28,289 nucleotides of DNA from a virus: IMG/VR virus record IMGVR_UViG_3300023313_000025, positions 1 to 28,289 of that record, one strand, 5' to 3'. A program made the translations under genes and the position numbers. The notes under the pieces are model-generated. The model ran no database searches. It saw only the letters and a program-made list of their open reading frames with translations, and was not told where the DNA came from. Below, in pieces: positions 4,401 through 27,310 of the stretch. The first letter of the stretch is position 1, and every line of letters starts with the position of its first letter.

Positions 4401-4627
4401 AATTTGAAATTAAAAAGTCAATTAATAAAAAGCAAGTTGATATTAATCATAATACAAAAAAATTAGTTACTAAATTAGCAAATAATAAAATTACAGAAAG
4501 TAAAAAGGAAGAAAAAACAGTTAATATTCATAATTCAAGTTCTTCACCTGCTCCAAAAGAATTAAAACTATCAGATATAAATGATAATAATAATTTTATG
4601 ATGGCTCATTTAGGAAAACTAATATAA
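1433..4627 (+). CDS. Tape-measure-like tail protein with C-terminal GH24 lysozyme domain
   Basis: This 1064-residue protein stands where contractile phages keep the tape-measure gene, directly before the baseplate genes. Residues about 30-125 are charged and helical. Hydrophobic stretches lie near 134-155, 209-250 and 356-392. Residues 160-211 show an approximately 11-residue Pro-Phe pattern (VMPFF, VFPFI, LWPFL, AFPFI). A threonine-rich tandem repeat (about 562-620) and a Ser-rich linker (about 685-740) follow. Residues about 755-900 form a T4-lysozyme-type GH24 domain. E763, D772 and T778 match T4 lysozyme E11, D20 and T26 with identical spacing, followed by GVGHLL, and SKWY and GRAVRI match its C-terminal part. 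The domain would cut peptidoglycan during DNA injection. Tape-measure identity is inferred from position, length and hydrophobicity; lysozyme identity is firm. AAGGAG supports the start. Confidence 0.88.
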   Translation: MLLSPNPSSIRPADIRENNIIELPEKTNNKIKLIPSVFSNSIKQIKELKEISSLNTKQNKSLANIITETKKNRIANEEQVKIERESLEIQEDAEYDRKHSFSHTFKKIADSNKYVIEKIKESGNSINNKVKEHGGWLSSILKVIGGAMLIKTFWPLFKEKVLPKIMNFFNNSVMPFFNNTVFPFIKDKILPEIKNSLWPFLRDKAFPFIKEHFVGVLTTLAIMSFLKNPISFLLLPLTLALKATGTIGKLLFKGVSSVIGKSAGIAGKSLISISQIAKTKTLSAIGILSEKSKTLMSSVSSRLTSFAKIVKEKTIKSFEFLRTKTRGLLGNSSRVGNKVRGLGRGAKNVAVKTVKGVLKLLKPIAKLIPFIGSLLLAIDLIDTLFPKLWPYLKENFSVEKIQKLGSKIWENIKKGVLSISDWIKNKFAGFIQIFRNGIASFIENKFSGLPIIGKKMKSIAEWIRGDKDKEIPIEPQKIKKLSITKLEELSKKHKGDNKEFIEKIKNYKKGIKSLKVSIEKRKSKIETGEISKDDKTLKSLTLALSNLEKTLLNKIELIKTPVVTPIVTNKTDNNITNKVVTPIVTNKTDNNITPIVTNKVVTPIVTNKTDNNITPIVTNTLTENEKELLSLYTKEDLGEVLSDKEFKSSSPNLLKAMKDKYKKLGGIIILKDYNSTYSFEKIKSSSEVPKIKSSSSSPIKSSSTVISSSNKPVTKPVITKNTAISKPKPVSSSANNPSILVKNSNIPKTVNANALINDLKRDEGEILHKYKDSLGNDTIGVGHLLRGSPLKKIIGVNKDVISSDESSTILAHDVSKHSSQLYKRIPWLKEQPEVIQRHMINMGFNLGVSGLLRFKKSINAIKDGDYNTAADGFEKSKWYRQVKGRAVRIVNDIRSVAKGTYKYVKGKSSPLSKAVSSVETITGFKLDDLNLGKFDKNGNFIFNSKETSSFNIGSVTKNFNSAFNSVTGFNSESKIIKDKSKTCNKITNKEFEIKKSINKKQVDINHNTKKLVTKLANNKITESKKEEKTVNIHNSSSSPAPKELKLSDINDNNNFMMAHLGKLI
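3116..3292 (+). repeat. In-frame tandem repeat inside the tape-measure-like gene
   Basis: Three in-frame copies of a unit start at 3116, 3167 and 3230 (51, 63 and 63 bp). They encode VVTPIVTNKTDNNIT, with an extra PIVTNK in the last two. Low divergence between copies suggests recent slippage or expansion. The segment probably forms an extended linker between the helical part and the lysozyme domain, so copy number may change protein length between isolates. Confidence 0.9.
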
Positions 4628-4630
4628 ATA
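4623..4630 (+). promoter_or_regulatory. T4-type late promoter candidate (TATAAATA)
   Basis: Exact TATAAATA overlaps the stop codon of the preceding gene and ends 19 nt before the next ATG. The spacing to the start codon is close to that at 1403-1410. Chance occurrence cannot be excluded at this base composition. Confidence 0.4.
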
Positions 4631-4649
4631 ATTATAAAAAGGAGATTTT

Positions 4650-5348
4650 ATGATATATCCAATAAATATTTTTACTCCAGACCCAGTATCTGGAAATATT
4701 AGACCTTTTATAATTTTTGTTGCTCAGGAAATTATGTTTAATTTTAAAAAAGTTCAGTCATTAAAAGATTTTATTAAAGATGGAACTCCACCAATTCCAA
4801 GAGGTGGATTTGTACTTCCAATGCCATCAGGAGGACTTATAGACGGTGTTTCTAATGATTTTGGACCAACTCCTAACTCAATAACTGGAACTTTTGCTGA
4901 AGCATTAAAAGGTAAAAGTATTATGGGAGTTAATATAGCAAATGTTATTTCAGATAAAACTGGAATGGTTATTGATCCCTGGATGACTAATATCTATAAG
5001 GGTTCGACTCCAAGAGTTTGGAATGGTGAATGGGAGTTTTTACCGCAGTCAGTTGCCGAATCACTTGCTGTTGCAGCACTTTTAATGAAACTAAAAAAAT
5101 GGTCAGCTCCACAAAGACATAAAGGTGGACTTCCAATTATGAAACAACCTTATGTTTGGAAAATAATATTTGCTAATCCTTATTTACAGATAATGACAAA
5201 TTATAATACTATGTCTCTTACAAGTTATTCAATAAATTATTTTGCCGATGGTTATGCTGCAACTTATATGGACGGAATGCCAAAACATTTAAGTCTTTCA
5301 ATGTCTTTTGCTGAATTTGGTATAAAATATCAAGACCAATGGATTTAA
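4650..5348 (+). CDS. Baseplate tail-tube cap/initiator protein, gp48/gp54-like
   Basis: This 232-residue protein probably caps the baseplate hub and starts tail-tube polymerisation, the job of T4 gp48 and gp54. The N-terminal half is rich in Pro and Gly (PPIPRGGFVLPMPSGG). The C-terminal half resembles the tube-like beta fold: WNGEWEFLPQS, then YVWKIIFANPYLQ, and a terminal strand LSLSMSFAEFGIKYQDQW that recalls the end of tube-type proteins. It is shorter than T4 gp48 or gp54 (each above 300 residues). It lies between the tape-measure-like gene and gp53, as expected for such a protein. AAGGAG lies upstream of the ATG. The assignment rests on fold impression and position; which of the two T4 proteins it matches is not decided. 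Confidence 0.6.
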   Translation: MIYPINIFTPDPVSGNIRPFIIFVAQEIMFNFKKVQSLKDFIKDGTPPIPRGGFVLPMPSGGLIDGVSNDFGPTPNSITGTFAEALKGKSIMGVNIANVISDKTGMVIDPWMTNIYKGSTPRVWNGEWEFLPQSVAESLAVAALLMKLKKWSAPQRHKGGLPIMKQPYVWKIIFANPYLQIMTNYNTMSLTSYSINYFADGYAATYMDGMPKHLSLSMSFAEFGIKYQDQWI

Positions 5349-5352
5349 TATT

Positions 5353-5871
5353 ATGGAATTAATGAAAAATCATTTTCTAAAATTTGAAAATATAAAAATG
5401 AGTGATGGAACTATTGTAAAAAATATTACAAGATTTAATTTATTACCTGAAATACCAGATAAATTTAAATCAATAGATTTTACAGAAAAAGTTAAAATAG
5501 ATGATAATGAACTTATTGAATTTATTTCTTTTAAACTTTATGAAACAACAGATTATTGGGATATTTTATTATTTATTAATAATATTAAAAATCTTGATGA
5601 ATTACCAGTTGATTATGATATTTTAATTGATAGAGCTCAAAGAGAAATTGATATTTGGAAAAATAAATATAGAACTCTAAGTTTTGAACTTACAGATGAA
5701 GCAATAAATAATAAATATATTAATATACTTGAAGATTTAAAAGTTAAAAATGAGAAATTTAGATTTTTAACTTATATTCCAGTTGAATATATGTCAGAAA
5801 TAATAACTTATATAGATGATAATATTAATTTAGTAAAAATAAATAAAAATATTATTATAAATAAGGATTAA
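5353..5871 (+). CDS. 53: Baseplate wedge protein, gp53-like
   Basis: This 172-residue protein resembles T4 gp53, a baseplate wedge component with a LysM-like fold that bridges neighbouring wedges. The supporting segment is residues about 55-90, ISFKLYETTDYWDILLFINN followed by a DELPVDYDIL stretch. This is the typical gp53/LysM pattern: 'variable or not yet placed element, Y, W, WWxIxxxNN, then a depth-like hydrophobic strand'. The remainder is helical and charged. The start is uncertain: ATG 5353 and ATG 5362 are both possible and neither has a strong ribosome binding site. It follows the preceding gene after 4 nt and precedes the gp27-like gene by 2 nt, so the three are probably translated together. 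Confidence 0.72.
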   Translation: MELMKNHFLKFENIKMSDGTIVKNITRFNLLPEIPDKFKSIDFTEKVKIDDNELIEFISFKLYETTDYWDILLFINNIKNLDELPVDYDILIDRAQREIDIWKNKYRTLSFELTDEAINNKYINILEDLKVKNEKFRFLTYIPVEYMSEIITYIDDNINLVKINKNIIINKD

Positions 5872-5873
5872 AA

Positions 5874-6989
5874 ATGGGTTATATATTTGGCGTTCAAAGT
5901 AATCAATATAAATCACTTAATATTACAATTGATGGGGTTGAAATTGATTCCTCTCAAATTCTTTCACTTACAATTGATTGGAATATGGATTCATTTAAAA
6001 TAATTGGCGGATTAATGATTTCTGATAAAACATCACTTGTTGAGTCAATTCCAATTAGAGGAAATAATATTGTTAATATTAATATTACTGATTTTGATAA
6101 TATAAATTTTAATCAAGAATTTATTGTAATTGATATTTCTTATACAAGAGATGTTACAGATGGTCATATCGCTATTTTAAGTTTAATTGATCCAATAACT
6201 ATTTCGGCAACTCAAATGTTTAATGGAATGTCTTGGAAAAAAGCATCAATTATTGATATTATTGACCATTCAGAAACCTTAAAACCTTTATTAAAAAAGA
6301 AAAAAAAGGATTTCTTTAGTCCAAAAGAAAAGTCAGAAAACTTTGTTATTCCCCTTAATGTTTCCTTTAATGTTATTCTTCATTGGCTATCAGAACAAAA
6401 TAATGTTTTTATTTTTCAGAATAGAAAAAACTTTATTATTCAACCATTAAAAGAATTATTTTCTAGAAATAAAAAAGGAGATAAATTTTATTATAAAACA
6501 CCTAATGCAGCATATAGAAATAGAGTTTATGAATATCATGTTTCTTATGGCTCACTTATTGAAAGAAATTTAGTAAGACCAAATGCTGATATTTCATCTT
6601 TTAGTGCTGAAAATAAAGGAAAAGAAAATATTAGTATTGATGCAAATAAAGCAGGACTTGAAATAAAAAGTAAAGGTAAAACAATTGAAAAATTACCTGG
6701 AACTGGAAATAAACAATTTTATAGAGCTGATAATCATTCAAAATCTGCTTCTGATAATTTATGGCAAAAATCTGCCTATAAAAGTATTTCTCTTCAAATT
6801 CTTTGTGCAGGAAAATTTGATAATAATATTGGTGATATAATTGAAATTGATTTAAAAAAAGATAAAGATGAAACAAAACCTGAACAAAATTTAAATGGTG
6901 AATGGTTAATTCAAAATATAAAAGATATTTTTACTAATAATGAATTTGTTCAAAAAATGGTTTTAGTAAGAAATAAATTTTCAACATAA
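5874..6989 (+). CDS. 27: Baseplate hub protein, gp27-like
   Basis: This 371-residue protein is close in length to T4 gp27 (391 residues), which forms the trimeric ring holding the gp5 spike to the tail tube. It starts with beta-rich sequence (YKSLNITIDGVEIDSS, then LTIDWNMDSFKIIGG). A mid-region follows with the helical WLSEQNNVFIFQNRKNFIIQPL segment and a C-terminal beta region ending GEWLIQNIKDIF and FVQKMVLVRNKF. That layout fits hub proteins of the gp27 / P2 gpD class. It lies directly before the gp5-like gene, as hub and spike genes usually do. AAGGATT precedes the ATG. The call relies on layout and neighbourhood more than on a single diagnostic motif. Confidence 0.68.
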   Translation: MGYIFGVQSNQYKSLNITIDGVEIDSSQILSLTIDWNMDSFKIIGGLMISDKTSLVESIPIRGNNIVNINITDFDNINFNQEFIVIDISYTRDVTDGHIAILSLIDPITISATQMFNGMSWKKASIIDIIDHSETLKPLLKKKKKDFFSPKEKSENFVIPLNVSFNVILHWLSEQNNVFIFQNRKNFIIQPLKELFSRNKKGDKFYYKTPNAAYRNRVYEYHVSYGSLIERNLVRPNADISSFSAENKGKENISIDANKAGLEIKSKGKTIEKLPGTGNKQFYRADNHSKSASDNLWQKSAYKSISLQILCAGKFDNNIGDIIEIDLKKDKDETKPEQNLNGEWLIQNIKDIFTNNEFVQKMVLVRNKFST

Positions 6990-8860: not shown

Positions 8861-11800
8861 ATGTTAAATGTAGTACCTTATGAATTTAATGAGATAAAAA
8901 CTGAATTAAAAAAGAAAGCAATTGAAAATCTAGGAATAAGTGATGCCGAATTTGAAGGTTCTTCTGTTTCTCAATTAATAGAATTATTAGCATATGCTAA
9001 TACAATGAATAATTCAAATATAACTTTTGCTATAAATGAAATGTTTATAACTCAAGCACAAGATAGAAGAAATGTTATTAAACATGCAAGTGAAATGGGT
9101 TATACTTATAAAAGAAAAGTTTCATATCAATATAAAATTAAATTACAAGTTACAAAAACAGGAGAAATAACACTTAATAAATATTCAACATTTTCTTCAG
9201 GAAATAATAATTATGTTTTTCTTGATGAAAGTATTTCCGATGTTTATGGAACTTATGCTTATATTAAACCACTTATAAATGAAAATAATAATAATCAAGA
9301 TAATCTTTATATTAGTAAAGATACAGAAAAGGATAATTATATTGTTAATGAGAATAATAGTGTTTATAAAATTCTTAAAAGAGGAAATATTGGTTCAGAA
9401 AAATTATTACTTGAAGTTATAAAAGGAGAAAAGCCAAATATTTTATCTAATATAAATCAAGATGTTTATATAACTGATAATTCAAGACAATTAGGTTATA
9501 GAAATTTAACTAAAATTGGAACTATTGATACTTTTTTAACTGATAATATTAATAATAAATTTAGAATACAAATAACACAATCTGATAATTTTATAAATCC
9601 ATTTGAAACTCAAATTTTACATAATTCATCTATAATATATAAAGATAATAATTTTATTCTAAATATTAATACAGATTTTAAAATTTATTCAATAAATTCA
9701 CTTAAATTATCAAATGATACTAATATTTCACCTTTAAGTATTATTTATAATAATGGAGATACAAATATTATTATTCCAAATGATTTATTAAATATAACTG
9801 AAAATTATAATACAGATATTTCTTTTAAAATTACTTTAAATAATACAGAAATATCTGGAATAAATTCAATTAATATTATTATTGATACAATAAATTATAA
9901 TATAACAGATTTTAATATTATTAATAATATTATAACACTTAATAATAAAATTGAAAATAAAATTGAACAAAATAAATCAATAATAAATGGAGAAATAAGT
10001 TTAAATAAAAATATAGTAAATATAGTTAATATTTTACTAATAAATCAACTTGATAATAGTAATATTATTATTCCTAGTGATAAATATTCATTTAATAATA
10101 ATATTATAACTTTTATTGATAATATTTATGATAATTATAAAGCAGAAATAGATTATAATTATTATTTAGAATTTGAAAAAAGTTCAGAAATAAAAATAAA
10201 TTATGATTATTATGATGATCTTACTAAATATTCAGTAATTCTTGATTATAATTATATTTATGGAAAAGACGGTTATTTATCAAAAAATATTTTCTTTGGT
10301 GATTTTAGAGGAGAAATAAAAGAAAATGAAAATGATTATAATAAAGATAATATGAAAAATGGTTGGAATGGATTTTATGCTTCAAGTTATGATGAAGAAA
10401 CAAATGTATTATTTTTTGATATTTCTGTTGTTGATTCAATTGATGAAAATATTCTAAATAAATCAAGAAATCAATATTATCATAATACATATGTTTCAAT
10501 TAATGGAGAAAATTCTGAAAGAATTGATAAAGTAATTATTTCTCCATTTAAGAAAACAAGATTTTCTTTTTGCTCACCAATAATTGATAAAAGTAATAAT
10601 GAAATAATAGATTATTCAGTTTATAATAAAGATACAACTTTTGCTTCTATTAATTTAATTGAAATTAAAGATACACTTGAAATAATTGTAAAAGAGGGAA
10701 ATTTAAAATTATGGAATGAAGAAACTCCGGAATCAATTGATTTAAGAAATCAGGCAATTTTAAATGGATTAGTAATTCCCGAAAAGGATTATATTAATAA
10801 ATATTTATCAATAAATATAAATCAGGATATGATTGATGCTGGACATTTTAATATTGATAATCTAAATATTGAAAATAATGGAATTGAACTTTTTATAACA
10901 AGATTACTCGAAGATGGGAAAATTGAAGTTGAAAAACCTTGGATTAAAAGAGATTATTTACTTGCTGAAAAAATAAATTCAGATGAAACAACTTTTGTAA
11001 TTATTCCTGATTCGGATTATGAAAATTATTTAAAAATATATACTAAATATGCTGGAACAGGAATTCCCCTTAGTCTTGATATGAAAATAAAATTAAATAT
11101 TCTTGAATCAAATGGATCAAATGGAAAAACAAATAATTTAATTTTATCGGATAATGAGAATTTTAAAACAATAAATTATTATAATGAACCAATAACTCCA
11201 TCTATTTTACATATTGAGGGTTCTGATATTGAAGAAACAGATAGTATTAGAAATAATGCACCTCTTTTTTCAAATACAGCAAATAGAGCTGTAACTAAAA
11301 AAGATTTTCAGACAATTTGTGAAGCACAACCTTATATTAAAAGTTCTGAAATTTGGGGTGGAGAGGAAGAAGTTCCAACTAAAAAACCAGGAATAATATT
11401 TTTTAGTTTTATTCCTTATTCAAAACCAAATACTTTTATAAAAAATGGATTTAGTTATTTATTAAAAGATATTAATAATATTGATTTATTTTTTACTAAA
11501 TATTATCAGATAACGGGAAAAGAAACTTATAGTGATTTAGTAGTAAATTCAAGTGATAAAAATGTTTTATTTAATATTTTAAATAATTATAAAATAATTA
11601 CTCTAGAACTAAATTATATTAAACCAATTTATATTGACTTTTCAATAAATGTTAAAGTTTTAAAATATAAATTTGGACTAACAATTGATCAAACAAATCA
11701 AAATATTTTTAGTTATGCAGAAAATTTCTTTAAAAAAAATATTGAAAAATTTAATTCAACCTTTTTTAAATCTACAATGTTTAAATATCTTGATGAAACT

Positions 11801-12684: not shown

Positions 12685-15600
12685 ATGTCAAAAACAGGAT
12701 TACCTTTATTTATTGATAAAATTTCAACTGAAAATATTAAAGAAAATGAAACAATATCTAAATTATTAGAAATTTATGCCGAAACTTTAAATCCTCAAGT
12801 AGATTTAATAAAAGACCCACTAAAAATTATTGATGTTGATTTTTTATTAGATAAAATAAATGAAACAAATAATATTAATTTTGATAATATTAGAAAAGAA
12901 TTATTTAAAATACATCTTGAGGAAATTTATAATACTTTTGAAAAAATAGGAGACTCAGAAGAAATATATAATAAATTTAAAGGTTTATATAAAATTCTAG
13001 GAATTCCTGAAAATCAATTAAAAATAACAGCACAAATTGATAAATCAATTAATTCTCAATATTTAAAAGCAAGTTCATCTTTTAAAAGTAAAAAGGGGAC
13101 AAAAGCTGGTTTTTTCTTTGTTTATGATATTGTAAATAGAGCGGGAATTCAAGCACTTAATAATGATGCTTTTTTTAATTTAATAGAAAATAAAGAAAAT
13201 CCTTATGAATATAAAGTTGAAACTTCGATGTATAAGGAAGTTTTTAAACAGACAATAGTTCCATTAGCACATCCAGTTGGTTTTAATTGGAATTTTATAA
13301 GACTTATTTCAGCTGGTTTTACTGATTATTTTGGACTAGAAAAAAAGGAAACTTTAAACTCTCTTATATTAACTTGTTATGGAATTAATGGAAATACAAT
13401 TACAACTCAAGATTTAATAACCTCTAATATATTTGGAAAAGTTAAAGATTTTAATATTTCAATAAACGAAAATAAAGAAGAGGAAGTAATAATTGATTTT
13501 GATAGTAAAACAAGATTAATAAAGGAATTTTCTGGAAATATATTAACTTATGATAGAGAAATAAATAATATTGAAATTTATAATATAGAATTAATAAATA
13601 AACAAGATGGAATTTTAAAATTAAATTCTGATTTAAATACTTATGATTATCAAGAATATTCAATAATAAATAAAGAATTTATTGAAATTAAATATCAAAT
13701 TAAAAATGATAAAATAGATAAATGGAATACTTCAAGAATTTATAATAATAATAAAACTATTAATAATTTAAATAAAAAACTATTTAATACTAAATTAATT
13801 TCAAAACAAGATATTTTAGAAAATTCAACTGATTTTAATGGAACTATAACAAAAGATAATGGAAATACTTGTGCACTTTCATATAAATCAACTTCAATAA
13901 TAAAAGTAAAAACAGAAGATATAGAAGATTATATAAAAGAAAAAAGAATAAGTGAAATAAATAAAGAAAGAAATATAAATGATATTAATTTAACTGAATA
14001 TAATATAACACAAGAAGATATTAATTTAGAAATAAGTCAAGGAAGAGATCCAAATAGATTATATAATGGAATTTACTCAACTCTTGATCATACTTTTAAA
14101 GAAATTGATTTTCAATCAAATAATGATAATTGGTCAAGATTAGATTATGGAAATGATTATAATAATAATGTTACTATTGGTCAAGAAAATAAATTTATTT
14201 TTAAAGATAATAATTGGTTAATAAGTAAAAATAATATTAATTTTAAAGATGTTGGTTTTAATAGTAATATAGATAATGGAAGATGGGAAAATTATTATAG
14301 ACCTAAATCAGAAGAAGATTTAAATTTAGTAAAAAGAAATCTTAATATTACTTCTCCAAATAATATTACAACCAAAAGATATGAAAATGATAATACCGAA
14401 TATATAGAAAATAATAAAATTGGAAGTAAAAATAATAGAGAATATACAGCTTGGGAATTTAATGTTATTTATCAAAAAATAAATGTTTTTAATAATATAC
14501 AAGAATATGATATTAATTTAACTTCATATTATATTATTGAAAAGGATAAAGCTGATATAGAAAAAAAGATAGGAAATCCAATAAAAAAGTTAAATAATAT
14601 TACTGGAATTTATGAAAATCAATTTGATAATCAAAATAATCTAATAGTTTATAAAACAACTTTTTATATTAGACCAAATAATGTTTTTGAAGATTATTTA
14701 AATCCAAATAATTTTATAATTCCAACTGATATTATAAAAGCAGATCCAGTAAATTTAAGAGCATATACAAGTGAAGTATTTAATATAAAACAAATAAAAG
14801 GATTTACTGATTTTTTAATTCCAAAAGAAATATTAAATCAATCATTTAGAGATAAAGAAGAAACAGAATTTTATTTAAATACTTCATTTATAGATAAAAC
14901 TAAAATTAATGAAGTATTAAATTTTATTACAGATGATTATTCAAAATTAAAACAAGAAGTATTTCTAAATACAAATATTAATTTAATAAACGGAGAATTT
15001 TTTAATAATATTTCAAATAAAATTGAGGATATTTATATTGGCTATCAAATAAGACCAATTGATGGAAAAAATAAAATAAATTATAATTTTAATTTATCTC
15101 CAATTCATAAATATAAATATAATAATATTATTAAAATAGGAACTAATTATAATTATAATACAGATGAATATACTAAAATATATGAATATAATACTAAAAT
15201 TCCAATATTTCTTGGAGATTGGATTATAGGAGATGAATATATAGATGGTAAAAGTTATAGAATATTAAATAATGAGTCCGAAATATATAGAACAGATTGG
15301 GAAAATACAGAAACCGAAAAATATAATTATAAAAGTAGAATAATTGAAAAATATGATATAAAAGATTTAAATAGAAATAAAATTAATGAAGTATTAAATC
15401 TTATTACAGATGATTATTCAAAATTAGAACAAGATTTAAATTTAGGCGATTTTTATTTAAATAAAGATAAAGCAAGTATTGGTTATTTAAAAATGTATTT
15501 TGATAAAAGTAATATAAATGAAAAAATAATTTTAAATAATAAAAATAATTTTCAAAGAAATACCTTTAGTCCAATAAATATAGGAGATTTTAATATTTCG

Positions 15601-15744
15601 GAAATTGATTATATAAATGGAAAAGGTGAAAACTTTAAAATAAATGCTGAAATTTATAGAGATGACTGGAATCCTAAAAATGACGAGTTTGAAAGTTTTG
15701 ATTTTAAAATTTATAAAAAGGATTTAAATGGAAATTGGATTTAA
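12685..15744 (+). CDS. Baseplate wedge protein, probably gp7/gpI-like
   Basis: This 1019-residue protein follows gp6, where T4 has gp7 (1032 residues) and P2-type phages have gpI. The first 230 residues look like the gpI-type wedge region: SKLLEIYAETLNPQVDLIKD with a helical bundle, IYNKFKGLYKILGIPENQL, and a VPLAHPVGFNWNF segment typical of wedge proteins. The rest is very rich in Asn, Ile, Lys, Asp and Tyr and probably beta-structured. The C-terminal third has internal repeats: NKINEVLN(F/L)ITDDYSKL occurs near residues 740 and 899, and EIYR(T/D)DW occurs twice. AAGGAG precedes the ATG. It is the last gene before the repeats and could carry tail-fibre attachment functions. Name withheld because the match is positional. 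Confidence 0.7.
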   Translation: MSKTGLPLFIDKISTENIKENETISKLLEIYAETLNPQVDLIKDPLKIIDVDFLLDKINETNNINFDNIRKELFKIHLEEIYNTFEKIGDSEEIYNKFKGLYKILGIPENQLKITAQIDKSINSQYLKASSSFKSKKGTKAGFFFVYDIVNRAGIQALNNDAFFNLIENKENPYEYKVETSMYKEVFKQTIVPLAHPVGFNWNFIRLISAGFTDYFGLEKKETLNSLILTCYGINGNTITTQDLITSNIFGKVKDFNISINENKEEEVIIDFDSKTRLIKEFSGNILTYDREINNIEIYNIELINKQDGILKLNSDLNTYDYQEYSIINKEFIEIKYQIKNDKIDKWNTSRIYNNNKTINNLNKKLFNTKLISKQDILENSTDFNGTITKDNGNTCALSYKSTSIIKVKTEDIEDYIKEKRISEINKERNINDINLTEYNITQEDINLEISQGRDPNRLYNGIYSTLDHTFKEIDFQSNNDNWSRLDYGNDYNNNVTIGQENKFIFKDNNWLISKNNINFKDVGFNSNIDNGRWENYYRPKSEEDLNLVKRNLNITSPNNITTKRYENDNTEYIENNKIGSKNNREYTAWEFNVIYQKINVFNNIQEYDINLTSYYIIEKDKADIEKKIGNPIKKLNNITGIYENQFDNQNNLIVYKTTFYIRPNNVFEDYLNPNNFIIPTDIIKADPVNLRAYTSEVFNIKQIKGFTDFLIPKEILNQSFRDKEETEFYLNTSFIDKTKINEVLNFITDDYSKLKQEVFLNTNINLINGEFFNNISNKIEDIYIGYQIRPIDGKNKINYNFNLSPIHKYKYNNIIKIGTNYNYNTDEYTKIYEYNTKIPIFLGDWIIGDEYIDGKSYRILNNESEIYRTDWENTETEKYNYKSRIIEKYDIKDLNRNKINEVLNLITDDYSKLEQDLNLGDFYLNKDKASIGYLKMYFDKSNINEKIILNNKNNFQRNTFSPINIGDFNISEIDYINGKGENFKINAEIYRDDWNPKNDEFESFDFKIYKKDLNGNWI

Positions 15745-21307: not shown

Positions 21308-22279
21308 TTGAAAGATATTAATTATATTAGAAAAGCACATAATGAATTTAAAAATGCAATAATTAGAATTCCAAATAAAAAAATAAAATGGAAAGAAAAT
21401 ATAAATGAAAATAAAAGAATTAGTAATTTTTGTGTTTTTATTTTAAGTTATGGAAGAGAAAACGGAAGAAATGCTACTTATAAAACTTTAAATAAAGAAA
21501 ACGCAGAATATAATCAAGATACTTATATTATTTGTTCTGATGATGATAAAAAATTAAATGATTATATTAAACAATATGGCGATAAAGTAATTATTTTTAA
21601 TAAAGAAAAAATGGGAAAAATGATTGATAAAGGAGATAATTTTGATATTACTAAGGTAACTGTTTTTGTAAGAAATATGTGTTTTGTATTTGCTAAAGAA
21701 ATGGGATATAATTATTTTCTTGAACTTGATGATGATTATTTTAATTTCATGCAAAGAATAATTTATGGAAAGGGAGAAAGATTACTTGTTAATTATATAA
21801 CAGATTTAGATAGATTATTTAAAATTCACTTGGATTTTTTAAAAAATACACCTATTAATTCTGTAACAATGTCTCAAGCAGGAGATTTTATAGGTGGGGC
21901 AAATAATCCTTATGCTAAAAAAGGTTGGCAAAGAAAAGTTATGAATTCCTTTTTTTGTGATATAAATAGACCATTTATGTTTGATGGAACTTTTAATGAT
22001 GATGTAAATTATTATATTCAGTCTGGAAGAAGAGGAATATTAAATTTTAATTTATTTGGATATACACTTAATGCAGCAACAACTCAAGCAACAAAAGGAG
22101 GAATGACTGAAGCATATCTTGATGGTGGAACTTATTTAAAAACCTTTTATAGTGTTATGTTTGAACCAAGTACAACTAAAATCGGAACTATTTGTCATAA
22201 TGAAAATAAAAGAATTCATCATCTAGTAAAATCAAAAAATACTTATCCATTAATTCTTGATGAAAGGTGGTCAAAATGA
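21308..22279 (+). CDS. GT-A-fold glycosyltransferase-like protein
   Basis: This 323-residue protein has the layout of a GT-A nucleotide-sugar transferase. The N-terminal part has FCVFILSYGRENGRNATYK, then YIICSDDDKKLNDYI, RNMCFVFAKEMGYNYFLE and the metal-binding acidic motif LDDDY (D141-D143). The acceptor half contains SQAGDFIGGANNPY and a conserved-looking FDGTFNDDVNYYIQSGRRG segment. The R-N...G...DDD pattern resembles glycosyltransferases associated with phage DNA-base modification (TET/JBP-associated, GREB1-like), but it is not diagnostic. Start is TTG at 21308, directly after the upstream stop; GAGGA lies 7 nt before it and no better start exists nearby. Its role may be sugar transfer to phage DNA or to a virion or host structure. 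Confidence 0.72.
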   Translation: MKDINYIRKAHNEFKNAIIRIPNKKIKWKENINENKRISNFCVFILSYGRENGRNATYKTLNKENAEYNQDTYIICSDDDKKLNDYIKQYGDKVIIFNKEKMGKMIDKGDNFDITKVTVFVRNMCFVFAKEMGYNYFLELDDDYFNFMQRIIYGKGERLLVNYITDLDRLFKIHLDFLKNTPINSVTMSQAGDFIGGANNPYAKKGWQRKVMNSFFCDINRPFMFDGTFNDDVNYYIQSGRRGILNFNLFGYTLNAATTQATKGGMTEAYLDGGTYLKTFYSVMFEPSTTKIGTICHNENKRIHHLVKSKNTYPLILDERWSK

Positions 22280-22515
22280 GTTATTTAAAAAATATTTCTC
22301 CAGATAAATTAATTCAAGAAATTTATTCTTTTAGAAAAAAACTTTCAGAAGATTTTAATATTATTGATGTTTTTATTGAATTTGCACATAGAAAAGATAT
22401 AGATTTAAGAGAACTTGGTGAAATGATTTCTGAATCAAAATATCTTGAAATTATTGAAGATGAATTAAAAGCAAATAATTATTTAAGTATTAAAAAGTTT
22501 GAGGAAGAATGGTAA
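22276..22515 (+). CDS. Late-transcription co-activator, probable gp33
   Basis: This 79-residue protein resembles T4 gp33, which binds the RNA polymerase beta flap and ties it to the sliding clamp at late promoters. Residues about 28-70 (IIDVFIEFAHRKDIDLRELG, then EMISESKYLEIIEDELKANN) follow the same helix pattern as T4 gp33 (YLEATTAFLEENSIPETQF then IEKIQSEAIDENLL). It is shorter than T4 gp33 (112 residues). The C-terminus KKFEEEW may be the clamp-binding tail, and its codons supply GAGGAAG for the next gene. The ATG at 22276 overlaps the upstream stop with AAAGG 8 nt before it; an in-frame GTG at 22267 is less likely. Sharing a module with gp55 supports the call. Confidence 0.62.
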   Translation: MSYLKNISPDKLIQEIYSFRKKLSEDFNIIDVFIEFAHRKDIDLRELGEMISESKYLEIIEDELKANNYLSIKKFEEEW

Positions 22516-23085
22516 ATGATTGGATATAATGACCAATATAATATTTTAGCTGGAGTGTTTTTTACTTTTAAAAATAAAAAAGCAAAAAAAACATTAAAAG
22601 TAAGTCACGGAAATAAAAAAAGAGAATTAATAAGAACAAGATTTCCTTATAGAAAATATGAATTATATTCTAATAAAGAATATATTCTTACTTGTTTATT
22701 TATTTTATTTGAATATAATCCAAGTTCCTTTGATAAAGCAATAGTTTTATTAAAAGATATAAAAAGAACAGAAGTTCTTAACTTTAAAAATAGTATAATA
22801 TATTATAAAAAATATTTAAAAGCTGATATTGAATATATTATGATTAATATTTCAAATGGAATTTCTTTTTATGAAATAACAGATTTATTTAGAGAGAAAA
22901 AAATAAATTGGTTTACTTGGTATTTTTATTTACTTATAAAGGAGATTTCAAAAGATGAGATTTTAAAATCAAAAATAAATGGTGTTTTATATTTAAAAAT
23001 AGAAAAACTTTTAATGTTTATAAGTTTTTCAGACGAAAATATAGAATTAATAAAAGAAGTAATGAAAGAAACAATAATAATATAA
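22516..23085 (+). CDS. Possible clamp-loader small subunit (gp62-like)
   Basis: This 189-residue protein directly precedes the gp44-like clamp-loader ATPase and is nearly the same length as T4 gp62 (187 residues), the non-ATPase clamp-loader subunit. Sequence similarity is not evident to me: it is a mostly helical, aromatic-rich protein with a basic N-terminal part (TLKVSHGNKKRELIRTRFP), helix-forming segments such as NPSSFDKAIVLLKD, and INWFTWYFYLLIKE. In T4 gp62 follows gp44, whereas here the candidate precedes it. The ATG follows the upstream stop at once (TAAATG), with GAGGAAG before it. Gene reality is strong; function is inferred from position and size. Confidence 0.5.
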   Translation: MIGYNDQYNILAGVFFTFKNKKAKKTLKVSHGNKKRELIRTRFPYRKYELYSNKEYILTCLFILFEYNPSSFDKAIVLLKDIKRTEVLNFKNSIIYYKKYLKADIEYIMINISNGISFYEITDLFREKKINWFTWYFYLLIKEISKDEILKSKINGVLYLKIEKLLMFISFSDENIELIKEVMKETIII

Positions 23086-23093
23086 GGAAGAAA

Positions 23094-24050
23094 ATGAAAA
23101 AAGTAGATAATAAGCAATTTATATGGGCTGAAAAATATAGACCTCAAACTCTAGAAGATTTAATTTTACCAAATGAAATTAAAAAAGGAATTGATAGATA
23201 TTATAGTCAGGGAAGATTTCCTCACTTATTATTACAATCTATAAATCCGGGACTTGGAAAAACATCACTTGTAAATGCTATTATAAAAGATTTAGATGCC
23301 GATGTAATGTGGATAAACGCATCAGGAGAAGCAAATATTGATACAATGAGAAATACAGTTAAAAGTTTTCTTTCTTCTGTTTCAATTGATGAAAGTCCAA
23401 AATTAGTAATACTTGATGAAGCAGATAGTTTATCAACGGGAGTTCAACAGCACTTAAGAGGACTTATTGAAGAATTTTCACAGCATTCTTCATTTATTTT
23501 AACTTGTAATTATCCAGAAAAAATAATTGAGCCAATAAGAAATAGACTTATTGAATATAATTTTGATGAGATTTTTTCTAGAAATAAAAAAGAAATGGGT
23601 TTAAAAATAGTAAAAAGACTTAAATTTATTCTTGAAAATGAAGATATAAAACTTGAAGATCCAAAAGTTCTTGGAACAGTAATTCAAAACTTTTATCCAT
23701 CAGTTAGAAAAATGATACTTACTTTACAAAAATATTCTGTTAATAATAAACTTGAACTTGATATTAATTTTGTAAATAATAGTTTAAAATTTACAGAAAT
23801 TTTAAAATTAACTAAAGAAAAGGATTTTACTAAATTAAGAAAAAAAGTTATTGATATTGATGATATTGGCTCACTTTATACTTTTATATTTAAAAATATT
23901 GAAGAATATTTTAAACCTCAATCACAACCTCAAGTTATAATAATGACAGCTAAATATGCCGATATGCATACAAGAGCAAGGGATTTATCAATCGTAGCAG
24001 TTTCTTACCTTATTGAACTTATGGTAACAAACGGAATAGAAATGAAATAA
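23094..24050 (+). CDS. 44: Sliding-clamp loader ATPase, gp44-like
   Basis: This 318-residue AAA+ ATPase matches T4 gp44 (319 residues), which loads the gp45 clamp onto DNA for replication and late transcription. WAEKYRPQTLEDLILP at 11-26 is the clamp-loader box. Walker A NPGLGKTS is at 51-58, Walker B LVILDEAD at 104-111, sensor 1 LTCNY at 136-140, and the arginine-finger region reads IRNRLIE, with R151, instead of the usual SRC. The C-terminal helical collar follows from about 240. AAGGAAG precedes the ATG. The clamp itself (gp45) and the DNA polymerase are not in this window. Confidence 0.95.
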   Translation: MKKVDNKQFIWAEKYRPQTLEDLILPNEIKKGIDRYYSQGRFPHLLLQSINPGLGKTSLVNAIIKDLDADVMWINASGEANIDTMRNTVKSFLSSVSIDESPKLVILDEADSLSTGVQQHLRGLIEEFSQHSSFILTCNYPEKIIEPIRNRLIEYNFDEIFSRNKKEMGLKIVKRLKFILENEDIKLEDPKVLGTVIQNFYPSVRKMILTLQKYSVNNKLELDINFVNNSLKFTEILKLTKEKDFTKLRKKVIDIDDIGSLYTFIFKNIEEYFKPQSQPQVIIMTAKYADMHTRARDLSIVAVSYLIELMVTNGIEMK

Positions 24051-24061
24051 GGAATAATAAT

Positions 24062-25735
24062 ATGAAAATAGTTGTATTTACAGGTGGAAGTGGAAGTCAT
24101 GAATTACAAATTGGTTTAAATAAATATAGAGATGAAATTGATGTTGATTTTATTATAAATGGATATGATAATGGTAAAAGTACAGGTTTAATTAGAAAAG
24201 TATTTGATGGAAAAATACTTGGACCATCTGATATTAGAAAAAATCAATTAAATCAATTTGCTTTACAAACAAATAATATTATTATTTCAAATGTTTTAAG
24301 TCATAGATTTTCTTCAGAAAATCCTTATGAATATATAATAAATTATTTAACAGAAAAAAATATTAATAAGTTTTTTATTGATATTATTCATAGATATTTT
24401 TCTAATAAAAAAGTTTATGAAATTTCCTATAAAGATATGTGTATAGCAAATATAATTTATGGACAACTTGCTTTTGAAAAAAATAATTCACTTCAAACAG
24501 CATCTGATATTATTTCAAAAGTTTTAAAAATTAAAAATAATATTATTATAAATTCTGATAAAAGTTTATTTTTAAGAGGTATAACAGAAAATAATAATAT
24601 TTTATATGATGAAGCTGATATAGTTGAATATAATAATTCGGAAGATAAAATAAATGATATTGAATTTTATGATGATGAAAATGATTGTATAATTTCAGAA
24701 AGTTATTTTTCAAAAAGAGCTCAGGATTCGGTTGAAAGTGCTGATATAATTATTTTTAGTACAGGAACTCAGTGGAGCAGTTTAATTCCAACATATAAGT
24801 CAGCTGAATTTAGAAAAGCAATTGAAAAAACAAAAGCAAAAAAATATTTTATTATGAATTCTACTTTTGATAAAGATATGAAAGGAGTAAATTCAGATGA
24901 AATAATTAAAATAATATCAAGATATATGAATATAAATGATTTAAATATTGTTATTGATAAATCTGCTAAAGAGGGATTAAATAAAATAAATAATTTTGAT
25001 AATAATATTATAAGTGAAGACTTTTCTCAAAAGCACTTTTATAAGCAAAATGGAATAAAACTAATTGAAAGTATTTTATCTGACTTTTATAAAAATCCTA
25101 ATAAAGAAGATTTATTTTTATTTGATTGGGACGATACAATTAAATCAAGAAATTTTCATAAACAAAATATTTCAGATTTAAATATTGAAATGGCAAAAAA
25201 ATTAAATAATAGATTTATTATTTCTGGAAATTCAATTAGAGAAATTAATTTTGATAAAGTATATGCTGAAAATGGAATAAATTATTATGAAAATGGAAAA
25301 TTAATAAAAACAAAAAAAGAATTTCATATTAATAAATTTATAAAACCAGTTATTTCAGAATTAAAAAAGATTAAATTAAGTTCAAGTTTAATAAGTAATA
25401 GGGAAAATGCTTGTATAACAATAAAACCAATTCCAGAAAAGTTTAGACCTTTATTAAAAAGTTATCTAACACTTATTTTAAAACCAAAAGAAAATAATCT
25501 TAAAATTAAAATAACAGGAAAATCAACAATTGATATAATTCATAAAAATACAAATAAAATAATTGCAATTTATGATATAATTCATAATAATACAAAAAGA
25601 GTTTTTTATATTGGTGATGAATATAAAAATGGAAATGATAGTGAAATTTATAAAAATAGAAAAGAATTAAAAATAAATTTTATTAAAATAAATAATATAA
25701 CAGATACACAATTATTTCTTAAGATTATAAAATGA
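24062..25735 (+). CDS. YvcK/CofD-like domain fused to a phosphomannomutase-like HAD domain
   Basis: This 557-residue protein has two parts. Residues 1 to about 335 resemble the CofD/YvcK family: VVFTGGSGSHELQIGL at the N-terminus (YvcK has a GGGTG loop), DNGKSTGLIRK and GPSDIRKNQL (YvcK DDGGSSGRLR and PPGDIRN), NSDKSLFLRGITENN, and ADIIIFSTGTQWSSLIPT. CofD moves a phospho-lactyl group from a nucleotide carrier; YvcK binds UDP-GlcNAc. Residues about 350-557 are a HAD domain like eukaryotic phosphomannomutase: DWDDT at 355-359, ISGNS near 385, YAENGINYYENGKLI, and IGDEYKNGNDSEIY. I do not know this fusion from other phages. The stop overlaps the next start by 4 nt, tying it to the nucleotidyltransferase. 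Substrate unknown. Confidence 0.75.
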   Translation: MKIVVFTGGSGSHELQIGLNKYRDEIDVDFIINGYDNGKSTGLIRKVFDGKILGPSDIRKNQLNQFALQTNNIIISNVLSHRFSSENPYEYIINYLTEKNINKFFIDIIHRYFSNKKVYEISYKDMCIANIIYGQLAFEKNNSLQTASDIISKVLKIKNNIIINSDKSLFLRGITENNNILYDEADIVEYNNSEDKINDIEFYDDENDCIISESYFSKRAQDSVESADIIIFSTGTQWSSLIPTYKSAEFRKAIEKTKAKKYFIMNSTFDKDMKGVNSDEIIKIISRYMNINDLNIVIDKSAKEGLNKINNFDNNIISEDFSQKHFYKQNGIKLIESILSDFYKNPNKEDLFLFDWDDTIKSRNFHKQNISDLNIEMAKKLNNRFIISGNSIREINFDKVYAENGINYYENGKLIKTKKEFHINKFIKPVISELKKIKLSSSLISNRENACITIKPIPEKFRPLLKSYLTLILKPKENNLKIKITGKSTIDIIHKNTNKIIAIYDIIHNNTKRVFYIGDEYKNGNDSEIYKNRKELKINFIKINNITDTQLFLKIIK

Positions 25736-26454
25736 AAGACTTATTAATTATTTCAGCAGGAAAAGGAAGTAGAATGAATTCAAAACTTCCAAAAATTTTA
25801 TTTAAAACAAAAAATAATAAAACAAATCTTGAAAATTTAATAATTGATACAAAAGAATATTTTAAAAATATTTATTTAATAATTGATAAATCTCAGGAAC
25901 AAATTTTTAAAAAACAAAAAAATATTAAATTAATTTGTATTAATTCAGGACTTGGCTCAGGACATGCAATTCTTGAAGGAATTAAAAAAATAAATAAAAT
26001 TTCTTCTGATATTACAATTATTTGGGGTGATGCAATAATAACAGATAAAAATATACTTAAAGAAATTATTAATTATAAAATGTCAGATTGTTCAGGAATA
26101 ATTCCAGTAAAACAAGTTAAAAATCCTTATGTCTGCTTTAAAATAACAGAAGATTTTATTTGTTCTTCTGTTGATTTTAGTAAATATGGAGAAATAAATA
26201 AAAATGGATTACAAGATTTATGTATATTTAGATTTAAAACAAAAATATTAAAAAAACAATTACAAGAATTTCATAATAATACTTTTAAAAATAATTATAT
26301 TACTATTTCAAAAGAATTTGAATTTTTATATATAATTCATTCACTTTATAATTCAAATAAAAAAATAAAATGTTTTAAAGCAGAAAATCCAAATTCAATT
26401 CTTTCATATAATTCTAAAACAGAACTTAAAAATATTATAAATAATATAAAATGA
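25732..26454 (+). CDS. Sugar-phosphate nucleotidyltransferase-like protein
   Basis: This 240-residue protein has the GT-A nucleotidyltransferase signature: SAGKGSRM at 8-15 followed by LPKILF at 19-24, GLGSGHAI at 73-80 (GlmU-like GTGHA) and the metal site WGDA at 98-101. Enzymes of this fold join a sugar-1-phosphate or similar phosphate to NTP. It would act next to the HAD/YvcK-like product whose stop codon its ATG overlaps, and it could supply the glycosyltransferase at 21308-22279. It lacks the left-handed beta-helix acyltransferase of GlmU. An alternative is a CofC-like guanylyltransferase partnered with the CofD-like domain. No clear ribosome binding site is seen, which suggests translational coupling. 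Confidence 0.8.
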   Translation: MKDLLIISAGKGSRMNSKLPKILFKTKNNKTNLENLIIDTKEYFKNIYLIIDKSQEQIFKKQKNIKLICINSGLGSGHAILEGIKKINKISSDITIIWGDAIITDKNILKEIINYKMSDCSGIIPVKQVKNPYVCFKITEDFICSSVDFSKYGEINKNGLQDLCIFRFKTKILKKQLQEFHNNTFKNNYITISKEFEFLYIIHSLYNSNKKIKCFKAENPNSILSYNSKTELKNIINNIK

Positions 26455-26477: not shown

Positions 26478-26726
26478 ATGATTGAAACAAAGGATTTTTG
26501 GGAAAAACATAACATAAGCACAAGGTTTCTAATAGTAATATTTGGAATTTCATTTTTAATAGTTGTTATAGGTGGAATAAAGGGAATTTCAATATCAGTC
26601 TTAATAATAAATATGGTTTGGTATACTTCAATAATAGCATTTGGAGTTTTAACTCTTGGAGTTAATGGACTTGAAAAACTTTTAAATGGAATAGCAACAA
26701 TTAAATTTGGAAAAAAAGATGATTAA
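26478..26726 (+). CDS. Small two-helix membrane protein, holin candidate
   Basis: This 82-residue protein has a short charged N-terminus, two hydrophobic segments (about residues 17-34 and 39-62) and a basic/acidic tail KFGKKDD. Size and topology fit a phage holin or antiholin, and it stands directly before a probable spanin pair. The ATG at 26478 is preceded by GGGAGGAAG, the strongest ribosome binding site in the area. An in-frame ATG at 26451 overlapping the upstream stop would add nine residues, but has no such site. No catalytic endolysin is seen in the window apart from the tail lysozyme domain. Confidence 0.6.
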   Translation: MIETKDFWEKHNISTRFLIVIFGISFLIVVIGGIKGISISVLIINMVWYTSIIAFGVLTLGVNGLEKLLNGIATIKFGKKDD

Positions 26727-26997
26727 AAATTTATTATTAGGATTTTTAGGATTATTTGGAATTGGCTATATAACAAAATTAAAAGTTGATAATAAAAGTT
26801 TAACAGATAAATTAAATAATCAAATAATTTTAAATATAGAAAATAAAACAGAAATTGAGTTTTTAAAAGAAAAATATAAAGAAAAACAAAAAGTAAATAA
26901 AGAAATAAAAGAAATAAAGGTAAAAATAAATAAAGCAAAGAAAAAAGAAATAAAAGAAGTTATATCTATTTCAGAACCAATTGATATTGGAATATAA
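26719..26997 (+). CDS. Inner-membrane spanin candidate (Rz-like)
   Basis: This 92-residue protein starts with a hydrophobic helix (residues about 4-19) followed by a Lys/Glu-rich coiled coil (about 25-80). That is the layout of i-spanins, which bridge the periplasm and fuse inner and outer membrane at lysis. The ATG at 26719 lies in the 3' end of the holin candidate (8-nt overlap) with GGA 7 nt upstream; a TTG at 26707 is less likely. A lipoprotein gene follows after 1 nt, giving the usual Rz/Rz1 pair. Confidence 0.6.
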   Translation: MIKNLLLGFLGLFGIGYITKLKVDNKSLTDKLNNQIILNIENKTEIEFLKEKYKEKQKVNKEIKEIKVKINKAKKKEIKEVISISEPIDIGI

Positions 26998-26998
26998 T

Positions 26999-27310
26999 AT
27001 GAAATATTTAATAATACCTTTTTTCTTTATTAGTTGTTCACAGCCAATAATTTTACCTAAAGTTAATATAAATTCTTTTAGTTATTCAAAAAAATATAAA
27101 TTAAGAGTTTATATTGAAAAACATAGTGATAATAAAGAATTTATGATTATAGAAAAAAACAGAGCGTTTAAATTTATTAAACATACAAAACAACTTAGAA
27201 GTAATTATAATTTACTTCTATATAAAATAAGAAATTTTAATACAAGGATTAAAAATGAACAAATCAGACTTAATAATAAAAGTAGCAGAGAAATTAAATT
27301 TAGAGAATAA
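26999..27310 (+). CDS. Outer-membrane spanin candidate, lipoprotein (Rz1-like)
   Basis: This 103-residue protein has a short lipoprotein signal, MKYLIIPFFFISC, with the lipid-acceptor cysteine at position 13 and a slightly atypical lipobox (F-I-S-C). The mature part is basic with several coiled-coil-like stretches. Following directly after the i-spanin candidate, it would be the o-spanin. The ATG at 26999 is chosen because the signal peptide starts there. A TTG at 26981 would add six residues before the signal. Its last 56 nt overlap the HU-like gene in another frame, so the C-terminal end serves two coding functions. Confidence 0.6.
   Translation: MKYLIIPFFFISCSQPIILPKVNINSFSYSKKYKLRVYIEKHSDNKEFMIIEKNRAFKFIKHTKQLRSNYNLLLYKIRNFNTRIKNEQIRLNNKSSREIKFRE

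Follow-up and report, generated by a model that had tools for sequence, protein, structure and literature searches.

A YvcK/CofD-phosphomannomutase fusion gene coupled to a GlmU-type nucleotidyltransferase gene: a candidate donor-making cassette for DNA glycosylation in T4-like phages

Background

Hypermodified bases are a main means by which phages evade restriction and CRISPR nucleases. Phage T4 uses the UDP-glucose of its host and has no donor-making cassette; because it draws on the host in this way, it does not need one. For RB69, in contrast, an arabinosyl-hydroxymethylcytosine pathway has been described in which the phage makes the nucleotide sugar for its own DNA, with ORF53_52c as a nucleotidyltransferase-like protein, ORF055c as a protein resembling arabinose-5-phosphate isomerase, and ORF003c as the glycosyltransferase (PMC6024577). 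A pentose-cytosine pathway has likewise been described for the Shewanella phage Thanatos, where TH1_063 is a UDP-xylose pyrophosphorylase (PMC12838424). Also relevant here is YvcK, a binder of UDP-Glc and UDP-GlcNAc (PMC5482804), whose orthologue in Listeria, GlmR, is a uridyltransferase that converts GlcNAc-1-P and UTP to UDP-GlcNAc (PMC10128056).

Results and discussion

The gene pair and its window

The window, by which we mean the whole stretch of DNA analysed, is a 28,289-base IMG/VR virus record and represents a fragment of a T4-like phage. Its GC content is approximately 15-27% per kb, and its genes include baseplate and tail genes, a late sigma factor, SbcCD-like genes and a gp44-like clamp loader. 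The features discussed below are collected in Table 1. The original prediction had placed a fusion gene here that is translationally coupled to a nucleotidyltransferase gene, and its positions for both open reading frames, the fusion and the coupling all proved correct: the stop of the fusion gene and the start of the nucleotidyltransferase gene share a 4-nt ATGA overlap. The nucleotidyltransferase gene and the next small open reading frame overlap in the same manner, and no further open reading frame of at least 60 aa exists on either strand in the stretch taken up by the pair. A search of PHROGs returned no significant family for the fusion protein or for the nucleotidyltransferase of the window.

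Table 1. Positions of the gene pair and of neighboring features in the window
Feature	Position	Strand	Evidence and remarks
CofD/YvcK-like domain (residues ~1-340) fused to phosphomannomutase-type HAD domain (~350-557), predicted	24062..25735	+	557 aa; PF01933, YvcK fold match, HAD profile
GlmU-type nucleotidyltransferase without acetyltransferase domain, predicted	25732..26454	+	240 aa; GlmU profile and structure match
TAGT-family glycosyltransferase, phrog_842 'beta-glucosyl-HMC-alpha-glucosyltransferase'	21308..22279	+	PF20691 8.9e-26; phrog_842 6.8e-50
gp33-like late transcription coactivator, weak	22267..22515	+	PF16805 0.028, below cut-off; 29% identity to L071 6541-6816, syntenic; context
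189-aa protein by the clamp loader, probably gp62-like	22516..23085	+	phrog_12320 1.3e-18; 45% identity to L071 5968-6537, syntenic; context
Clamp-loader large subunit, gp44-like, directly upstream of the fusion gene	23094..24050	+	phrog_168 2.1e-82; syntenic with L071; context, outside the pathway

Elsewhere in the window, two overlapping small open reading frames (26707-27310) resemble a spanin pair, with a weak match to phrog_739 and a lipoprotein-like second member, and a 1019-aa protein that has no PHROG match is encoded between the baseplate and late-sigma genes (12685-15744).

Domains of the two proteins

The N-terminal domain of the fusion protein had been predicted to be CofD/YvcK-like, and both sequence and modelled structure bear this out. 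Residues 3-334 match the Pfam family CofD (PF01933) at 2.1e-24 (86.7 bits; the cut-off is 30). An AlphaFold model of the domain aligns with the YvcK/UPF0052 structure 2o2z at a Z of 27.9 and an rmsd of 2.7 A over 286 residues, which puts the domain in the CofD/YvcK fold. The same model gives a Z of approximately 19 with CofD/FbiA, and, one chance match aside, the only PDB entries matched by the sequence are UPF0052 proteins (6e-22). Judged by sequence and modelled fold, the domain is closer to YvcK/GlmR than to CofD/FbiA; in neither comparison was the 2-phospho-lactate transferase CofD/FbiA the closest match. The domain is related to YvcK, but by the NCBIfam cut-off it would not be classed as a YvcK ortholog, since it reaches 77.4 bits with the YvcK/GlmR model TIGR01826, for which the curated cut-off is 196. 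Among the residues tested in YvcK/GlmR, the N217/N218 position appears to correspond to N266, which is invariant in the fusion protein, the DD pair (D40, D41) to D36 together with N37 or D37 in the phage proteins, and N198 to Thr or Ser.

For the remainder of the fusion protein, Pfam gave no match in the window sequence, PF03332 included, and on the homologue from the metagenomic phage LR756500 (described below) PF03332 remains below its cut-off (18.5 bits versus 22.4). A profile of 18 phage homologues, compared with the PDB, matched a phosphomannomutase best (7myv, 4.9e-16), and all 16 significant matches are HAD-type phosphomannomutases or alpha-phosphoglucomutase. In 22-23 representatives, D355xD357xT359, R363, G389 and N390 are invariant, while K499, G518 D519 E520 and G524 N525 D526 (GDE..GND) are retained with rare exceptions. 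Because the structure predicted for this domain in the window protein is poorly folded (pLDDT <50), the assignment rests on sequence profiles, which identify it as a HAD domain of the phosphomannomutase type and a predicted mutase, as the original prediction had it.

The second protein had been described as GlmU/CofC-like. We found the GlmU half of this description to be right: a profile of 12 nucleotidyltransferase sequences matches the N-terminal domain of GlmU in the PDB from end to end (2.9e-32, with the first non-GlmU match at 4e-12), and the predicted structure, with a pLDDT of 89, matches GlmU at a Z of 26. The CofC half was not borne out, as no CofC family was among the matches in the Pfam, NCBIfam and PDB profile searches. 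R14, K21, W98, G99 and D100 are invariant in 22-23 representatives, and N227 occurs in all but one of 22 sequences, the exception having a gap there. In other words, catalytic residues are essentially invariant in both the HAD domain and the nucleotidyltransferase across the 22-23 representatives, rather than lost in all relatives.

The phage enzyme does not score at the level of a GlmU ortholog (58.7 bits versus 366.85), and it is only 240 aa long, with the acetyltransferase domain absent. In GlmU, we take Q76 and Q79 to be the residues that recognize uracil and E154 and N169 those that recognize the sugar, GlcNAc. All four positions are replaced in the phage enzymes; a Pro-Tyr pair (132-133), Gly159, Asp162 and Phe166 are common to the phage and bacterial nucleotidyltransferases. 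With the uracil and GlcNAc positions replaced and a different pocket conserved, the sequences suggest a substrate other than UTP and GlcNAc-1-P.

Relatives of the gene pair

When only the window proteins were used, back-translation scans gave no matches in viral or bacterial contigs. The productive scans of IMG/VR were a two-row alignment scan, which led to a 112-kb contig with both genes overlapping, and then degenerate DNA patterns from the invariant motifs GTQWSSLIP and LGPSDxRKNQ, which led to 36 stretches that all contain the fusion or part of it. These two motifs constitute a sequence signature for finding further phages with the cassette. Counting the 112-kb contig, the fusion is present in 33 distinct IMG/VR records besides the window, among them large contigs of 343, 345, 352, 368 and 429 kb. 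The annotated phage records contained a single full-length match, at 32% identity, in the 462-kb metagenomic phage LR756500.1, where the nucleotidyltransferase gene is found 1.2 kb downstream of the fusion gene; the fusion protein of the 429-kb contig is the same as that of LR756500. Clustering at 90% identity divides the 30 long fusion sequences, window included, into 23 clusters, with 49.6% identity between the window sequence and its nearest counterpart. With few exceptions, records that cover the flank have the nucleotidyltransferase gene immediately downstream of the fusion gene; in the 352-kb record (G663, locus L055) it lies just upstream. Recurrence of both genes in 33 IMG/VR records and one named huge phage puts their pairing beyond chance.

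Several neighboring features of these loci are recorded here for their own sake. The topoisomerase-type genes of LR756500 (L001, 360-6769) seem to be split, with intein- or homing-endonuclease-like open reading frames between the pieces. The gp44-like clamp-loader gene of L071, the nearest relative of the window, is spread over three open reading frames (3936-5928) with intein- or endonuclease-like sequence between them, whereas the window copy is uninterrupted. One phage contig contains an apparent gene for a PstS-like phosphate-binding protein (L004, 18261-19055).

Association with DNA glycosyltransferase genes

The T4-type DNA beta-glucosyltransferase (BGT; PF09198) was found in 31 of the 33 fusion records, which are not independent events because many of the records are relatives of each other, and in none of the control genomes. 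For comparison, a BGT query has matches in 120 of 50,697 public phage records (0.24%). The BGT gene lies upstream of the fusion gene in 25 records, as far as the DNA fetched extends, and at a distance of at most 100 nt in 14 of these. Because the pair recurs nearly always with the gene for a T4-type DNA glucosyltransferase, it probably makes an activated sugar for DNA. The two records without PF09198 are a 28.7-kb fragment that starts near the fusion gene and the 352-kb record G663, which alone among the 33 has TAGT glycosyltransferases (PF20691), two of them, approximately 140 kb from the fusion gene. In the partner BGTs, the T4 residues E22, D100, R191, R195, D258 and R269 are retained in all 21 sequences and E272 in 20, while the position of E163 varies.

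Within the 28-kb window fragment we saw no BGT or hydroxymethylase gene. A TAGT gene lies 1.8 kb upstream of the pair with three genes between, giving the order TAGT, gp33-like, gp62-like, gp44, fusion, nucleotidyltransferase. The corresponding series in L071 is hydroxymethylase-type gene, cupin, BGT (9210-10349), fusion, nucleotidyltransferase, gp33-like, gp62-like, gp44. Comparison of the two orders indicates that the window TAGT occupies the place of the relative's BGT cassette, and we propose that it is the DNA glycosyltransferase of the window phage. A gene of LR756500 (L001, 22168-23148) that we had considered as another TAGT was dropped, having no match to the window TAGT or to Pfam.

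Two further kinds of gene were noted beside the cassette. The cupin protein of L071 (10336-10701; PF07883, with a weak match to mannose-6-phosphate isomerase), encoded between the hydroxymethylase-type gene and the BGT gene, might be an additional sugar-pathway enzyme. A family of SAM methyltransferases adjoins the fusion gene in L004 (8781-9587), L069 (12000-13022), L057 and L079, in the first and last of which it separates the fusion gene from BGT; it might methylate the sugar or the base.

Hydroxymethylation and nucleotide genes

Genes of the TS family are present in 28 of the 33 fusion records, many of which have two; none was found in the 352-kb G663. At the position of N177 in E. coli ThyA, all 11 canonical paralogues have Asn and all 14 readable divergent paralogues have Asp, as does RB69 ORF048c, which carries the annotation 'similar to dCMP hydroxymethylase'. 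This Asp is a known mark of specificity for dCMP over dUMP, as in T4 dCMP hydroxymethylase. On the strength of this residue, we assign the divergent paralogues of the relatives to the dCMP-hydroxymethylase type. Thymidylate-kinase-like (dNMP-kinase-like), guanylate-kinase-like, dUTPase and PRA-PH/MazG-like genes also recur nearby. A TET/JBP search of seven records was blank, as were its control searches.

A bacterial counterpart

In a tree of CofD domains, the phage sequences form one group (100/99) and, together with a bacterial sister group, stand apart from the YvcK-type proteins (100/99, with long-branch warnings). The sister domains, from Pseudomonadota, carry a C-terminal part that we read by eye as a GT2 glycosyltransferase and that has no Pfam match. 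In most loci, a HAD protein and a nucleotidyltransferase of the same type, with the motifs WxD, PY[IV] and GxxD, are encoded next to this protein or close by, in surroundings of glycosyltransferases and other glycan genes (L006, L017-L019, L037-L040). Whereas the phage CofD-like domain is fused to its HAD domain, the bacterial one is fused to GT2 and the HAD protein is separate. This protein is of the beta-phosphoglucomutase/CbbY type, so that a different HAD fills the place of the phage mutase. We do not press its identity as a true beta-phosphoglucomutase, because its best matches mix beta-PGM with phosphatases. What phages and bacteria have in common is a CofD-like domain paired with a nucleotidyltransferase in a glycan context. 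In L037-L040 we also noted a B12-binding radical-SAM-like gene, a methyltransferase-like gene and, in some, a large membrane protein, which suggests a complex glycan pathway.

A proposed pathway and its alternatives

We consider it likely that the fusion protein and the nucleotidyltransferase make the donor for a phage pathway that glycosylates DNA at hydroxymethylcytosine. From the domains, the conserved residues, the linkage of the two genes and their association with glycosyltransferase and hydroxymethylase-type genes, we infer the reactions, their order and the decoration of DNA as their product. The nucleotide-metabolism genes nearby, the T4 residues retained in the partner BGTs, the nucleotide-sugar binding and synthesis known for YvcK and GlmR, the related module of bacterial glycan loci and the precedents of RB69 and Thanatos also speak for this reading. 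The phosphomannomutase-type HAD domain would convert a hexose 6-phosphate to the 1-phosphate, and the GlmU-type enzyme would couple the resulting sugar-1-phosphate with a nucleotide. The YvcK-like part of the fusion protein may bind the nucleotide sugar or assist its formation; this is the most doubtful step of the scheme. Counting against the DNA-glycosylation reading are the apparent redundancy of two folds that might both handle nucleotidyl groups, the separation of the window TAGT from the gene pair, the lack of BGT and hydroxymethylase genes in the window fragment, and the fact that T4 manages without a cassette of this kind. A DNA glycosyltransferase, of the T4 BGT type in most relatives and of the TAGT type in the window, would transfer the sugar to hydroxymethylcytosine, itself supplied by the dCMP-hydroxymethylase-type enzyme. 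The activated sugar is probably attached to the viral DNA and hides it from bacterial defences. The original prediction had the pair building and transferring a nucleotide-activated group, and its option of DNA modification gains support from the BGT genes in 31 of 33 records and from the dCMP-hydroxymethylase-type genes; nothing was found in support of its virion-modification and cell-wall options.

How unusual the donor may be depends on the reading adopted. At the level of the pathway, a sub-case of DNA glycosylation is that the product of the cassette is ordinary UDP-glucose, reached from Glc-6-P through Glc-1-P, for hosts or large genomes whose needs exceed the cell's supply, with no new sugar. 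A HAD-type alpha-phosphoglucomutase (4bnd) among the HAD profile matches is consistent with this supply role, and D100, D258, E22, R191 and R269 in the partner BGTs fit a UDP-glucose donor. The E163 position is variable, however, the uracil and sugar positions of GlmU have given way to a different conserved pocket that the bacterial relatives share, and UDP-glucose synthesis requires no YvcK-like domain; we regard ordinary UDP-glucose as possible but doubtful. We hold as tentatively the idea that the YvcK/CofD-like domain acts as a transferase in its own right, which with the nucleotidyltransferase would build a donor new to phages, such as an unusual sugar or phospho-linked group, and hence give these phages a novel type of base decoration on their DNA.

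The logic of CofC and CofD, whose phospho-lactate chemistry the original prediction had offered as an analogy, would have the nucleotidyltransferase activate a phospho-compound and the CofD-like domain move phospho-X to a hydroxyl of a sugar or modified base, yielding a phosphodiester decoration, with the HAD domain trimming or preparing the phosphate. The superfamily fold (Z of about 19 with FbiA/CofD) speaks for it, as does the tie between CofD-like domain and nucleotidyltransferase, which phages and bacteria share, each with a different third partner (HAD or GT2 fusion). The analogy is weakened, and this chemistry improbable, because the domain is nearer YvcK than CofD, the nucleotidyltransferase is of the GlmU and not the CofC type, and the substrate of CofD is a small molecule, not DNA. 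Finally, the cassette could mimic GlmR and alter the UDP-GlcNAc or cell-wall metabolism of the host with no role in DNA, given the role of YvcK/GlmR in regulating or making UDP-GlcNAc in Firmicutes (PMC10128056, PMC7525490). Conserved linkage ties the cassette to genes for DNA glucosyltransferase and hydroxymethylase-type enzymes, and the GlcNAc-binding positions of GlmU are lost, making such mimicry very unlikely.

Comparison with known systems

The cassette is conserved in many uncultivated phages, several of them of 340-460 kb, and, if it is donor-making, as we favor, the modification may differ from glucosyl-hydroxymethylcytosine. It also provides natural genetic surroundings in which to test the chemistry of the YvcK/CofD superfamily, a group with roles that remain under debate. 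In accordance with the claim that no phage system with this set had been described, we found no phage CofD/YvcK set in the open-licence literature.

YvcK/GlmR and the GlmU of UDP-GlcNAc synthesis share the folds of the N-terminal domain and the nucleotidyltransferase; the phage pair differs in scoring far below the ortholog cut-offs, in having no acetyltransferase, in its altered nucleotide/sugar pocket and in the mutase-type fusion. With T4, the cassette relatives share BGT, identified through PF09198 and approximately 31% identical to the T4 enzyme, and the Asp-type TS-family enzyme. Like the cassette phages, RB69 is a T4-like phage with nucleotide-sugar genes near dCMP hydroxymethylase for hydroxymethylcytosine glycosylation, and the cassette nucleotidyltransferase has a distant relative in its ORF053c (34 bits). 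RB69 differs in its isomerase-type gene and in using another glycosyltransferase, and neither the CofD model nor the bacterial HAD models matched any of the RB69 genes tested. Thanatos, similarly, encodes a nucleotide-sugar pyrophosphorylase proposed to serve DNA glycosylation, while the text of the paper describing it contains no CofD or YvcK-mutase fusion (PMC12838424). Nucleotide sugars made by phages for their DNA are thus already known from RB69 and Thanatos, but they are made there by different genes.
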